Shown: positions 6,115-10,425 of the stretch, piece after piece
Layout: every line of letters begins with the position of its first letter
Position numbering within the stretch: the first letter of the stretch is position 1
Virus record (IMG/VR): IMGVR_UViG_3300048927_000175
Location: 1 to 49,504 of that record
Source: a virus
Strand: one strand, 5' to 3'
Length of the DNA: 49,504 nt
Translations under genes and position numbers: made by a program
The notes under the pieces: generated by a model
Seen by the model: only the letters and a program-made list of their open reading frames with translations
Databases searched by the model: none
Told to the model about the DNA's origin: nothing

Positions 6115-6234
6115 TCAGCCCCTCGCCGTTACGATGTCTTTTGAGTTGCGATAGCCGGCAGCGAATATCGCGATTTCTGGTAAGCACTGTGATGTGCTCT
6201 CATGCCTGTCACGCAGAGAAGGGTTACTCCTCAT
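6115..6234 (-). CDS. Stand-alone peptide resembling the C-terminus of N antiterminators (39 aa)
   Basis: Encodes [20 protein letters not shown] followed by IAIFAAGYRNSKDIVTARG. The end matches the C-terminus of the N-like protein at 6803-7054 (PSLRD, CLPE-I/V-AI-F/Y-A/S-AG-Y/F-RN) and, as I recall it, the C-terminus of P22 N (LPGVALYAAGHRKSKQITAR). The arginine-rich RNA-binding head is missing. Its ATG lies in the last codons of the pentapeptide gene, with AGGT about 6 bases before, and its stop abuts the next gene. Reading the two copies codon by codon, most differences are silent or conservative, which supports real coding. A longer in-frame start at 6297 exists but lacks ribosome-site support. 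Confidence 0.6.
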   Translation of the reverse strand: MRSNPSLRDRHESTSQCLPEIAIFAAGYRNSKDIVTARG

Positions 6235-6799
6235 CGCTACCTGGCTCGCCAATCCAGTCAGGGCGCACACCTTTACCAATATAGAAGTCGATAACATCCA
6301 GCAGGCGAGGATAGAACTTCAGCGCCTTACGCCCATCCATCTCTGCAATATCGCGCTTACTGAACTTGCGCCACTGTTCTGCTGTGTGGTTCTGGCAGCC
6401 AGCTTTGACATATTCACCGTTAGTGATTTGCAGATAGTAGGCCTCGCCCATAATCACGAATGTGTGATCTGGCAGGTCGGCACCGCACAGGTTGGCACCG
6501 CGCAGGTTGGCATCGCGCAGGTCGGCACCGTACAGGTCGGCATCGCGCAGGTTGGCACCGCGCAGGTCGGCACCGCGCAGGTTGGCACCGCGCAGGTCGG
6601 CACCGCGCAGGTCGGCATCGCGCAGGTCGGCACCGCACAGGTTGGCATCGCACAGGTTGGCACCGCGCAGGTCGGCACCGCACAGGTTGGCATCGCACAG
6701 GTCGGCATCGCACAGGTCGGCTCTCGATCCGCTTTCACGCATCGACGTAATCCACAGCTTGTGTTCCTCAAGTACTTTCTGTAATTCGGTCGCGTTCAT
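6224..6799 (-). CDS. Pentapeptide-repeat protein (191 aa)
   Basis: Residues 27-111 are 17 uninterrupted pentapeptides of the form A(D/N)LXX, with X mostly R/C then G/D, which fold as a right-handed quadrilateral beta-helix in this superfamily. A 26-residue head ([20 protein letters not shown]) and an 80-residue non-repetitive tail ([20 protein letters not shown] onward) flank it. Some pentapeptide proteins mimic DNA and inhibit or protect gyrase, but many have unknown function; the target here is unknown. AAGGA stands 6 bases before the ATG, overlapping the N stop, so it is probably co-translated with N as the second gene from pL. Confidence 0.9.
6467..6721. repeat. 17 tandem 15-bp repeats encoding the pentapeptide helix
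   Basis: The coding DNA is a near-perfect array of 15-bp units of the type GGCACCGCGCAGGTC as read on the plus strand, with changes at only a few positions (C/T, A/G). Neighbouring units are often identical, so the array can gain or lose units by slippage or unequal recombination. Confidence 0.92.
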
Positions 6800-7324: not shown

Positions 7325-7353
7325 AATTTAGCGTTATGCTAAATGATTGGCAA
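7325..7353 (-). promoter_or_regulatory. Early leftward promoter pL
   Basis: Minus-strand TTGCCA (7348-7353), 17-base spacer, TAAATT (7325-7330). The -10 box overlaps operator OL1, mirroring the arrangement at pR. Confidence 0.65.
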
Positions 7354-7401
7354 TAGCAAAATGCTAAATAATTTGGGCGCAGGGTTTAGCTAAATGATTT
7401 A
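7327..7401. promoter_or_regulatory. Left operator OL1-OL3
   Basis: Three 17-bp sites of the form TTTAGC-N5-GCTAAA: OL1 7327-7343 (both half-sites perfect), OL2 7352-7368 (left half AATAGC), OL3 7385-7401 (right half GATTTA, degenerate). OL1 and OR1 have the same half-sites. These are the likely CI/Cro binding sites governing pL. Confidence 0.75.
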
Positions 7402-7440: not shown

Positions 7441-7463
7441 AAAAAAGCCCGCGTTACACGGGC
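7441..7463 (-). terminator. Intrinsic terminator upstream of pL
   Basis: GCCCG/CGGGC stem with a 7-base loop, T run on the minus strand. It would shield pL/OL from leftward transcripts coming from the cI side. Confidence 0.75.
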
Positions 7464-7877: not shown

Positions 7878-7901
7878 AAAAAAAGCCCGCCGGACGCGGG
7901 C
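7878..7901 (-). terminator. Intrinsic terminator
   Basis: GCCCGC/GCGGGC stem, 5-base loop, seven T on the minus strand. Same flank as those at 7441 and 8024. Confidence 0.75.
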
Positions 7902-8023
7902 TAATCGTTACAAAGAATTAAATAGAGAAGCATTTGAGCAACGGTTTTGCTCAGTCAGATCATCGTCAAAGGCCATGAAAACTTTAGTCATCAGCACCGG
8001 GTGGTCACAGAGATTTCTGGCAC

Positions 8024-8047
8024 AAAAAAGCCCGCTCAGTGGCGGGC
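8024..8047 (-). terminator. Terminator of the cI-side operon
   Basis: GCCCGC/GCGGGC stem with 6-base loop and six T on the minus strand, 43 bases after the end of the membrane-protein gene at 8091. Likely the end of the leftward unit that starts at cI or just below it. Confidence 0.8.
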
Positions 8048-8090
8048 TTGGTTGGGGTGGCGTTATGGTTGCTGCCCAGTTTTAAAGAAA

Positions 8091-8600
8091 TTATAGAAAC
8101 TTCAAAATTCCAACGCCTAGCACTATTGCAGTACCAACAGTCCAGATGATTTGTTTAACTGTGGATTCCGAGATCCACTTCTGAACTTCGTCTTTACTAG
8201 GCTTTTTATCCAGCTTAGCGTCATAATCGACGAAATTTTTCATCATTACCGTGTTAACAGTAGTGGTTTCAGCGTTAGTAGAAATAATTTTGTCGAGCTT
8301 TGCATCCATTGCGTTAACACTTGCCATGAGATGCTCTAAGCTCCTCTCAATTTTGGCAATTCTTTCGCTCATTTCATCTCCCGAGAGATAATCCTCTCCA
8401 TCTGCATTAGTCATTGTAGCTGACTTAGTTGACTCAACACTAGATGATAGAATTCTTAAATCACTAGCCACCCTTGCCGATAGAAATGTTATGTAATCAA
8501 CCGGGTCAATATCTTGTGGCAAATCAATGTTAATTGCGATTGTAGGCGATGATACGGCCAGCTGTAACGTTTTGACAGATGTTACATGACCAAGTTCCAT
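8091..8600 (-). CDS. Coiled-coil protein with C-terminal membrane anchor (169 aa)
   Basis: N-terminal soluble part (MELGHVTSVKTLQLAVSSPT), central coiled coil (SERIAKIERSLEHLMASVNA onward, residues about 75-105), then a hydrophobic C-terminal segment IIWTVGTAIVLGVGILKFL, giving a tail-anchored inner-membrane protein. It is the second gene of a pair placed between cI and N, the usual location of exclusion genes such as lambda rexAB. No family recognised. It could sense or block superinfection, but that is inferred from place and topology only. AT-rich relative to the phage core. Confidence 0.6.
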   Translation of the reverse strand: MELGHVTSVKTLQLAVSSPTIAINIDLPQDIDPVDYITFLSARVASDLRILSSSVESTKSATMTNADGEDYLSGDEMSERIAKIERSLEHLMASVNAMDAKLDKIISTNAETTTVNTVMMKNFVDYDAKLDKKPSKDEVQKWISESTVKQIIWTVGTAIVLGVGILKFL

Positions 8601-8605
8601 AGGAT

Positions 8606-8902
8606 TTAATTACCCGCCATCAAATCAAGTTGGTGCTGGACGGCCCTCATAAGCTCTTTAGCCTGATGCGCAGTCATAGTAATAGAGCCGACCTTTGTAA
8701 ATACCATTTCGGCAGGCTGCTCTTTTAAGGCTTCTTGCTCAAGACCATTTGATTGATTATCAAGAGAACTTACAACGAAATGGGAGCGCATGAAAATCAT
8801 GTCAACGAAAGTCTCCTCGCCAACCTTATAGCATGCTGCTCCAGAAGTTGTTGCAAACACAGGGATATTTGCTTGTGCTTCATTACTGTTAACTACCTTC
8901 AT
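8606..8902 (-). CDS. Small protein, possibly DUF3467-like (98 aa)
   Basis: Starts MKVVNSNEAQANIPVFATTS, GGAG 7 bases upstream of ATG. Alternating strands are followed by a helix VGSITMTAHQAKELMRAVQH; the ending 'xMTxxQAKxLxxAL' recalls the DUF3467 family. It ends 5 bases before the membrane-anchored partner gene, so the two are surely co-transcribed, from pRM or from a weak promoter in the 105-bp gap below cI. Function unknown. Confidence 0.55.
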   Translation of the reverse strand: MKVVNSNEAQANIPVFATTSGAACYKVGEETFVDMIFMRSHFVVSSLDNQSNGLEQEALKEQPAEMVFTKVGSITMTAHQAKELMRAVQHQLDLMAGN

Positions 8903-9007: not shown

Positions 9008-9688
9008 CTAAACAAGACGCATCTTAGTCTCGATCGCTACACCCAGAACTTTGCAGTTTCCGTTCACTGGTACCATGGGCCATTGGGGATTCAAGCCCTT
9101 CAGATACTTCTGGCTGCCATCAATGATGAGCTTCTTGAATGTGGCTTCGTTATCATCAGTCAGCTTCGCCACAACTAGGCTGCCATTCACCGCTTCCCGT
9201 CCCGTATCGAACAGCACATATGTTCCGGCCGGGATACTTAGCCCGATCGGGGCTGTCATCGAATCGCCTTCCACCTGCAACCAGAAAGCATCTCCCTGCG
9301 TATGTGCGTCGGATTCAAGCCACATATCGACATCCTTAATCGTATAGGGTTCACAGGCTTCATCCCATGCGCCAGCCTGAACCTTGCTTAAAACGGGGTA
9401 GCGCGCAGTAGGCTTGTAGTCCCTAGGGTTGGAGACGTTAGCGTCAACCTGTGGTTGTTCTTCATGGATGGAATCAAGCCAGGCATTGGGCAGCTTTAAA
9501 GCCACTTCAATTTTCCTCGCCATCTTATCCCCGATGTTCCTGACGCTATTTTGGCCAAGCAGCTGACTGAATTGGGATGCGCTAATGCCCAAAAGCTCTG
9601 CGAATCCAGCCTTTGTATTGCCATCGTTCTCAAGGTGCCTCTTCAGGAGGTTGTTGAGATTGGTTTTTCTGATGCTTTTATTTTCCAT
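9008..9688 (-). CDS. cI: CI-type prophage repressor (S24 autoprotease)
   Basis: A 226-residue repressor. Residues 8-65 are a helix-turn-helix domain (TKAGFAELLGISASQFSQLL). The C-terminal LexA-like domain has the Ala105-Gly106 cleavage site (VQAGAWDE), the nucleophile Ser143 (EGDSMTAP) and the Lys175 base (LVVAKL). It represses pL and pR in the lysogen and would self-cleave with RecA after DNA damage. It is divergent from cro, with three operators between them. Leftward transcription (pRM, pRE) continues into the two genes at 8091-8902. Confidence 0.93.
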   Translation of the reverse strand: MENKSIRKTNLNNLLKRHLENDGNTKAGFAELLGISASQFSQLLGQNSVRNIGDKMARKIEVALKLPNAWLDSIHEEQPQVDANVSNPRDYKPTARYPVLSKVQAGAWDEACEPYTIKDVDMWLESDAHTQGDAFWLQVEGDSMTAPIGLSIPAGTYVLFDTGREAVNGSLVVAKLTDDNEATFKKLIIDGSQKYLKGLNPQWPMVPVNGNCKVLGVAIETKMRLV

Positions 9689-9706
9689 GGCTTGATTCTC
9701 ACACTA

Positions 9707-9772
9707 TTTAGCAATGCGATAAATATGCGAATTGCTAAATAGTGCTTGTTAGTTATTTAGCATAACGCTAAA
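9707..9772. promoter_or_regulatory. Right operator OR1-OR3
   Basis: Three sites of the form TTTAGC-N5-GCTAAA: OR3 9707-9723 (right half GATAAA), OR2 9723-9739 (left half ATATGC), OR1 9756-9772 (perfect). OR3 and OR2 abut, OR1 is 16 bp away. OR1 covers the pR -10 region and OR3 is nearest cI, as in lambda. Confidence 0.8.
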
Positions 9773-9801: not shown

Positions 9802-10035
9802 ATGGGTAATGAACTTCTCCGCTGGCGCAAGGAATCTTCAGCTGAAGACTGGATCAGCCTTGCTGCACTAGCGAAAACATCTGTTGGCTACCTCGACCAA
9901 ATTGCATATGGATTCCGCCGAGCATCACCAGGCAAAGCCTTAGCAATTGAGGAAGCCACAAATAAATTCACCGATTACCAGCCGGTGAAGAAGGAAAGCT
10001 TAGTTTTTGCACCACAGCGCGCTTCAGCAGCTTAA
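9802..10035 (+). CDS. cro: Cro-like repressor
   Basis: A 77-residue basic protein in the cro position, divergent from cI. Residues 17-45 (DWISLAALAKTSVGYLDQIA) have the helix-turn-helix pattern; the C-terminus is short and flexible. AGGAGG stands 6 bases before the ATG. It should bind the same operators with opposite preference and shut down cI synthesis in the lytic cycle. Members of the YdaS/Cro group look alike, so the exact family is not fixed. Confidence 0.8.
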   Translation: MGNELLRWRKESSAEDWISLAALAKTSVGYLDQIAYGFRRASPGKALAIEEATNKFTDYQPVKKESLVFAPQRASAA

Positions 10036-10149: not shown

Positions 10150-10425
10150 ATGGAACGCGCAAAGAAACGCAACGAGGCACTGCGCATTGAAAGCGCCTTG
10201 CTTAACAAGATCGCCTTAATCGGCACAGAGAAAGCTGCTGAAGCTGTCGGGGTTGATAAAGCTCAGATAAGCCGGTGGAAACGAGACTGGATCCCCAAGC
10301 TATCAATGCTTCTTGCAGTACTGGAATGGGGCGTCGTGGATGACGAGATGGCTCATTTAGCCAGACAGGTGGCAAGCATTCTCACCAAAGAAAAAGCGCC
10401 GAATGCGGGAACATTCGACGCCTGA
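10150..10425 (+). CDS. cII: CII transcriptional activator
   Basis: A 91-residue protein very close to lambda CII in the first 80 residues (KRNEALRIESALLNKIALIG, AEAVGVDKAQISRWKRDWIP with the helix-turn-helix, then MLLAVLEWGVVDDEMAHLAR for tetramer formation). The C-terminal tail, which in lambda is the FtsH degradation tag, differs (EKAPNAGTFDA). CII activates pRE by binding TTGC-N6-TTGC, and such a site is inside this gene's 5' end. Decides between lysis and lysogeny. Confidence 0.95.
   Translation: MERAKKRNEALRIESALLNKIALIGTEKAAEAVGVDKAQISRWKRDWIPKLSMLLAVLEWGVVDDEMAHLARQVASILTKEKAPNAGTFDA
10159..10172 (-). promoter_or_regulatory. CII-binding site of pRE
   Basis: On the minus strand TTGC-GTTTCT-TTGC, the exact CII direct-repeat form, overlapping the first codons of cII. 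In lambda pRE has the same site at the same place. It would drive leftward, cro-antisense transcription into cI. Confidence 0.8.

Follow-up and report, generated by a model that had tools for sequence, protein, structure and literature searches.

A gene pair in the rexAB place of a phage genome belongs to a modular family with exchangeable soluble partners and a proposed role in prophage exclusion

What are the two small genes that follow the repressor gene in this phage genome, and what might they do for a lysogen? The window, a stretch of 49,504 nucleotides (positions 1 to 49,504 of IMG/VR virus record IMGVR_UViG_3300048927_000175), carries two intact, ATG-started open reading frames on its minus strand, the first encoding a soluble protein of 98 aa (8606..8902) and the second, 5 bp further on, a tail-anchored coiled-coil protein of 169 aa (8091..8600) that we propose to be a membrane effector. 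Upstream of both, on the same strand, a gene for a CI-type repressor forms the head of the operon (9008..9688; Peptidase_S24 4e-24, phrog_4 'transcriptional repressor' 1e-46), beyond which lie a small repressor-like gene in the cro position (9802-10035) and cII (at 10150; Phage_CII 1e-41).

The operator sequence ATTTAGCNNNNCGCTAAA flanks cI and the pair on both sides, with 15 matches where 4.5 are expected and none of 100 shuffles reaching 15. Three right operators (9706-9723, 9723-9740 and 9755-9772) occupy the cI-cro intergenic region at 9706..9772, and two left operators (7327-7344 and 7352-7369; 7325..7369, minus strand) overlap a PL-like promoter at 7353-7325, promoter-like matches in the region as a whole being at chance level (4 versus 4.5 expected). 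A strong intrinsic terminator of 8 pairs, 6 of them G-C, stands directly behind the 169-aa gene on the minus strand (8028..8049) and closes the unit of cI, partner and effector, and the terminator scan found none between cI and the gene pair. The intergenic gaps, 105 bp from cI to the partner and 5 bp from the partner to the effector, are nearly equal to the 112 and 15 bp of lambda cI-rexA-rexB, whose rex genes likewise lie between cI and OL/PL. This geometry of gaps and terminators suggests that the pair is co-transcribed with cI, and its place between cI and OL/PL is exactly that of rexAB. The first-pass annotation had described a leftward pair of 98 and 169 residues below cI, in the place of lambda rexAB and with the same division into a soluble and a membrane protein, and the coordinates, strand, place and single-helix tail anchor all agree with it. 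Two features of the surrounding region deserve mention in their own right. Between the module and the left operators, three leftward terminators, that at 8028-8049 and two more at 7447-7463 and 7884-7902, have a common core (GCACAAAAAAGCCCGC on the plus strand). Further along, on the PL side, a gene at 6224-6799 encodes a pentapeptide-repeat protein of 191 aa (Pfam 1e-33), a shorter relative of which occupies the corresponding area of a Pantoea prophage (L038, 5458-5877) that also has a module of partner class D, as defined below.

Both open reading frames are real genes, since a relative (L006) keeps the two proteins in identical order, at 44% and 54% identity to the window pair, with pN well below pS for each (pN/pS 0.37/0.89 and 0.29/0.65). 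The 169-aa protein matches phrog_3556 (7e-15) and phrog_12602 by profile. Its AlphaFold model is of modest mean confidence (67) and was used for secondary structure alone; it consists of an N-terminal beta-beta-alpha segment (residues 10-53; 8442..8573, minus strand), a disordered stretch, a long helix or coiled coil (residues 74-130; 8211..8381, minus strand) with conserved columns at R80, A82 and E85, and a last helix at residues 136-168. The sole transmembrane stretch is formed by residues 151-169 (8094..8150, minus strand; mean hydropathy 2.06), a single short helix that gives no pointer to a pore. Given the profile match, the single C-terminal transmembrane helix and the soluble gene immediately upstream, the protein is a member of the phrog_3556 effector family. 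For the 98-aa protein, AlphaFold with ten relatives predicts three strands followed by a C-terminal helix (pLDDT ~94 over residues 21-40 and 71-90, pTM 0.54), and a hydropathy scan found no transmembrane stretch. Hydropathy and modelling thus agree with the earlier description of a soluble protein beside one with a coiled coil and a C-terminal membrane anchor. Searches of solved structures and folds with the 98-aa protein gave no significant match; a levivirus coat protein (E 0.08) was set aside as a look-alike that also combines a beta-sheet with a helix.

Neither protein had a match worth reporting in Pfam or NCBIfam, nor any match to the defence models of PADLOC-DB 2.0.0, which bears out the earlier statement that they match no known defence family; 30 PADLOC matches obtained through one long relative (L086) reflect its generic coiled coil. 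No known sensor or toxin fold was seen in the proteins of the family, which we count, together with the lack of any pointer to a pore in the single short helix, against a role in exclusion. The rexAB slot, in turn, elsewhere holds proven defence genes, namely lambda rexAB, CarolAnn 43/44 (PMC6426606) and GiPD474 (PMC12724215), and because of this we favour, with some reserve, the reading that the pair is a prophage exclusion module of the abortive-infection type, expressed with the repressor and composed of a sensor and a membrane effector.

Relatives of the pair could be reached only through the coiled-coil family of the 169-aa protein, as close relatives of the 98-aa protein were found neither by tblastn in phages nor by peptide pattern in IMG/VR. 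Searching this family in phages, IMG/VR, GTDB genomes and whole enterobacterial genomes, we found it to be large and widespread and assembled 38 modules, almost all of which come from phages and prophages of enterobacteria; outside Enterobacterales, 369 gammaproteobacterial genomes yielded weak matches only. The effectors share one plan, in which a variable cytosolic N-terminal segment is followed, usually through a Gly-rich linker, by a coiled coil with the signature 'RVAKLE...VEDIK', the constant part of the family, and by one C-terminal transmembrane helix. By hydropathy, 36 of the 38 effectors, and none of the partners, have one helix that lies at the C-terminus or no more than about 20 residues from it, and in most relatives examined a soluble gene lies directly upstream. 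Profiles place the effectors in phrog_3556, phrog_6136 and phrog_12602 and the partners in phrog_12039, phrog_4293 and phrog_5893, known so far as unnamed clusters; we found no link among these six PHROGs, or from them to defence. Fused partner-effector ('Rosetta stone') frames, a search prompted by the long phrog_3556 profile, were not found; in the long frames of L106, L107, L108 and L114, the coiled-coil model had picked up unrelated proteins.

The partners fall into four classes without detectable relation to one another, labelled by eye and then checked by similarity scores. Class A, to which the window pair belongs, comprises beta-beta-beta-alpha proteins of 93-98 aa (phrog_12039), and the relatives of the 98-aa protein are L006, HK544_041, L018, L037, L052, L080 and L081. 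Class B is a second small type of 94-105 aa whose weak resemblance to class A (mean z 1.0) suggests that the two may be distant relatives, class C consists of zinc-ribbon proteins (phrog_4293), and class D of proteins of 132-168 aa (phrog_5893/5881). A fifth type may be represented by one further locus (L096), where an unrelated 119-aa protein precedes an effector of 227 aa whose N-terminal segment is long.

That partners change while the membrane part stays constant can be computed directly across the 38 modules. Membrane parts resemble one another to an equal degree within partner classes (mean z 16.6) and between them (15.4), whereas the partners themselves do so within classes only (12.1, against 0.03 between them). 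Identity of the membrane part reaches 85% between a zinc-ribbon module (L014) and a class D module (L012) and is 80% between L021 and L019, with unrelated partners in both comparisons; DNA homology between modules of different classes runs from the linker to the effector stop codon. The N-terminal segment, by contrast with the membrane part, covaries with the partner. With the membrane part held constant, the partial Mantel r between N-terminal segment and partner is 0.58 (0 of 2000 permutations), while that between membrane part and partner, with the N-terminus held constant, is 0.06 (p 0.08); rank-based tests within classes C and D only give r 0.24 (0 of 3000) for the N-terminal segment and -0.03 for the membrane part, which serves here as the internal control for the shared ancestry within classes that inflates such correlations. 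The length of the segment also follows the partner, being 51-77 aa with class A, 16-33 aa with class C and 21-43 aa with class D, and the beta-beta-alpha form seen in the window occurs only with class A partners. The simplest reading of these sequence comparisons is that the N-terminal segment would be the docking site of the partner, and that partner and docking segment would be swapped as a block at the linker. The window pair is thus a single variant within a modular family whose partners can be swapped, a point that the first-pass annotation had missed; other members are those of HK544, epsilon34 and the O157 Sakai prophage Sp15. We found no published description of the family or of its modular exchange, nor any experiment on its genes, although subscription journals or preprints may contain one, and the exchange is undescribed as far as the openly searched literature shows.

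Variable partners on constant effectors would also be expected if the soluble protein were itself the active inhibitor, acting on DNA entry, on assembly or on an enzyme of the phage, with the coiled-coil protein a mere inner-membrane anchor, in the manner of superinfection exclusion at entry. A single helix behind a Gly-rich linker suits a flexible tether, binding of nucleic acid or protein is conceivable for the zinc-ribbon partners, and for the Butters pair gp30/gp31 the reported effector is the cytosolic protein (PMC12894663). The conservation of coiled coil and helix through partner swaps, at 85% identity, goes beyond what an anchor needs, however, and we regard this explanation as unlikely.

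If the two proteins work together, their genes should rarely be found apart, and separation in other genomes had been named at the outset as the observation that would speak against a joint system. The pair is generally together, and it is the type of partner that is exchanged. A class A partner model matched in 2 of 295 enterobacterial genomes, both times next to an effector; all seven convincing phrog_5893 partner matches lie at effector loci; and about 16 of 20 phrog_4293 partner frames of at least about 100 aa have a family effector or close variant at most 20 bp behind, a count made by reading the output and including two effectors that are truncated or frameshifted. Exceptions exist on both sides, and we count them against the exclusion reading. 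Zinc-ribbon partners in L144, L150 and L151 have no recognised effector directly behind, and about five effector-like genes (L094, L098, L099, L103 and L104) have no recognisable upstream partner, being possibly decayed modules or stand-alone members. In L156, the zinc-ribbon partner is followed by a different membrane protein, and in L158 and L159 by a protein whose membrane helix precedes a coiled coil, which is possibly an effector of inverted topology.

The same effectors bear on the idea of a toxin-antitoxin system, in which the parts would be those of the exclusion reading with the opposite sign for the partner, an antitoxin restraining a toxic membrane protein that infection sets free. 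The architecture is suggestive, as the genes are small and paired, with the soluble one upstream and a median gap of 1 bp (23 loci including lambda; a stop/start overlap or a few bases), and other toxin-antitoxin systems offer examples of one toxin that stays the same while its antitoxins are swapped. A strong toxin would not tolerate the loss of its partner, though, and the five loci just named hold effectors without an intact one; nor did we see an autoregulatory DNA-binding domain in the partners. We therefore consider a toxin-antitoxin system quite improbable.

The position of the modules provides a further line of evidence. A Pfam scan covered 20 upstream genes, which belong to 19 modules. 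In 18 of these modules, repressor domains are encoded by the gene that directly precedes that of the partner (HTH_3, Peptidase_S24 or Phage_CI_repr, with S24 alone in L068); in the nineteenth, L131, an S24 protein lies two genes upstream, and the twentieth scanned protein is its RelA/SpoT neighbour. Repressor-type domains are thus present in 19 of the 20 proteins, in both lambdoid and P2-like prophages, and in L124 and L125 the order is repressor, module, integrase, as in P2-like prophages. The first-pass annotation had suggested looking for such pairs between cI and N in other prophages, and those of HK544 (gp41/gp40), Sakai Sp15 (ECs_2991/2992) and epsilon34 (gp45/gp44) are each found between the repressor and PL/N. 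Of 5426 E. coli genomes, 93 carry the HK544 pair with an identity of 99% or higher. The ECs2991 protein was detected in the proteome of O157:H7 in rumen fluid (PMC3936929), so that one partner at least is known to be produced. Some modules lie outside the cI operon, still at accessory-gene sites, which we count against the exclusion reading: that of UPF_BP1 adjoins mnt, and those of S107 and SPN3UB precede the tape measure gene, at tail moron sites. In S107, a gene for a small predicted lipoprotein (L004:3383-3736) stands directly behind the class C module. The class C module of L131 (G620:C53:1-9000) lies between RelA/SpoT, S24 and DUF4145 genes and a reverse transcriptase, surroundings that look like a defence island and that we count in favour of the exclusion reading.

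Position in the cI operon would also fit a regulatory role, in which the pair has no part in defence and instead tunes the phage's own choice between lysogeny and lysis or the physiology of the lysogen (lysogenic conversion); RexA itself biases the lambda switch (PMC11077077). We hold this to be very unlikely, given that the module occurs behind unrelated lambdoid and P2-like repressors and in tail moron sites, and that its soluble part is freely exchanged.

How might an exclusion module built in this way work? Computation establishes where the genes lie, the one-helix tail anchor, the pairing with an upstream gene in most loci, the exchange of partners and the covariation of the N-terminal segment with them. 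Place, modularity and the precedent of RexAB are what lead us to infer defence, while physical docking, trigger and membrane damage belong to the model. The first-pass proposal of an undescribed exclusion system accordingly holds for place and logic and is a candidate reading for function. In the model that we propose, the 98-aa protein would be the recognition part, seated on the beta-beta-alpha segment at the N-terminus of the 169-aa protein, which the C-terminal helix would hold in the inner membrane and which would oligomerise through its coiled coil. A product or activity of an invading phage would alter the soluble protein or its contact with the segment, upon which the assemblies of the membrane protein would rearrange and damage the membrane, by leak or depolarisation, so that the infection is stopped. 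By analogy with RexAB, the module probably protects the host cell from other phages. It is tempting to go further and describe the family as a modular prophage immune receptor, with a constant tail-anchored coiled-coil effector, at least four unrelated plug-in soluble recognition proteins and a docking segment that recombination at the Gly-rich linker exchanges together with them, the whole being encoded in the repressor operon of lambdoid and P2-like prophages; in this full form, the proposal is tentative, and we would not yet put it above its alternatives taken together. If it is true, the rexAB place in enterobacterial prophages would house exclusion systems of one family, in which different sensors can be fitted to a single effector, and this would explain why two small uncharacterised genes stand behind the repressor in so many prophages. 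Several unnamed phage protein families would also gain functions, genes of HK544, epsilon34 and the Sakai prophage Sp15 among them, and the family would offer a natural parts kit in which the specificity of the sensor can be swapped and tested with the output fixed.

Among known systems, the haemolysin XhlA (PF10779 / phrog_1193) likewise combines a short coiled coil with a membrane helix that comes after it at the C-terminus, and one plasmid relative of the family is annotated 'hemolysin XhlA'. We rejected an assignment to XhlA or to holin-type lysis proteins, as the relatives score at most 19.9 bits against a PF10779 cut-off of 34.7 and the 169-aa protein has no PF10779 match and reaches phrog_1193 at E 0.2 only. 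Two other systems come from prophage immunity regions. GiPD474, a defence gene of an enterobacterial prophage with homologues near cI, cro and cII (PMC12724215), encodes a single protein with an ATPase domain, unlike the window pair, with which it was compared by description. Also set apart by description is remAIN, reported in the immunity region of Gifsy-1 (PMC12724215), which is a three-gene cluster including a ParA-like AAA protein (PMC9879122). The closest parallels are lambda RexA/RexB and the RexAB-like pairs of Sbash, CarolAnn and P. putida, a group of which only five systems have been counted to date (PMC12894663), and in which, as here, two genes of the repressor operon encode a soluble and then a membrane protein. 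In build, RexA and RexB, a 279-aa soluble protein and a protein with four membrane helices, differ from the window pair, with its 98-aa soluble protein and its single C-terminal helix preceded by a coiled coil. Homology to RexA was rejected because the Pfam model PF15969 matches the lambda protein (1e-97) and not that of the window (BLASTP E 7.4), and homology to RexB because PF15968 matches the lambda protein and not that of the window (BLASTP E 1.7), which has one helix, not four. The family is therefore not RexAB by homology, yet it probably works like RexAB.
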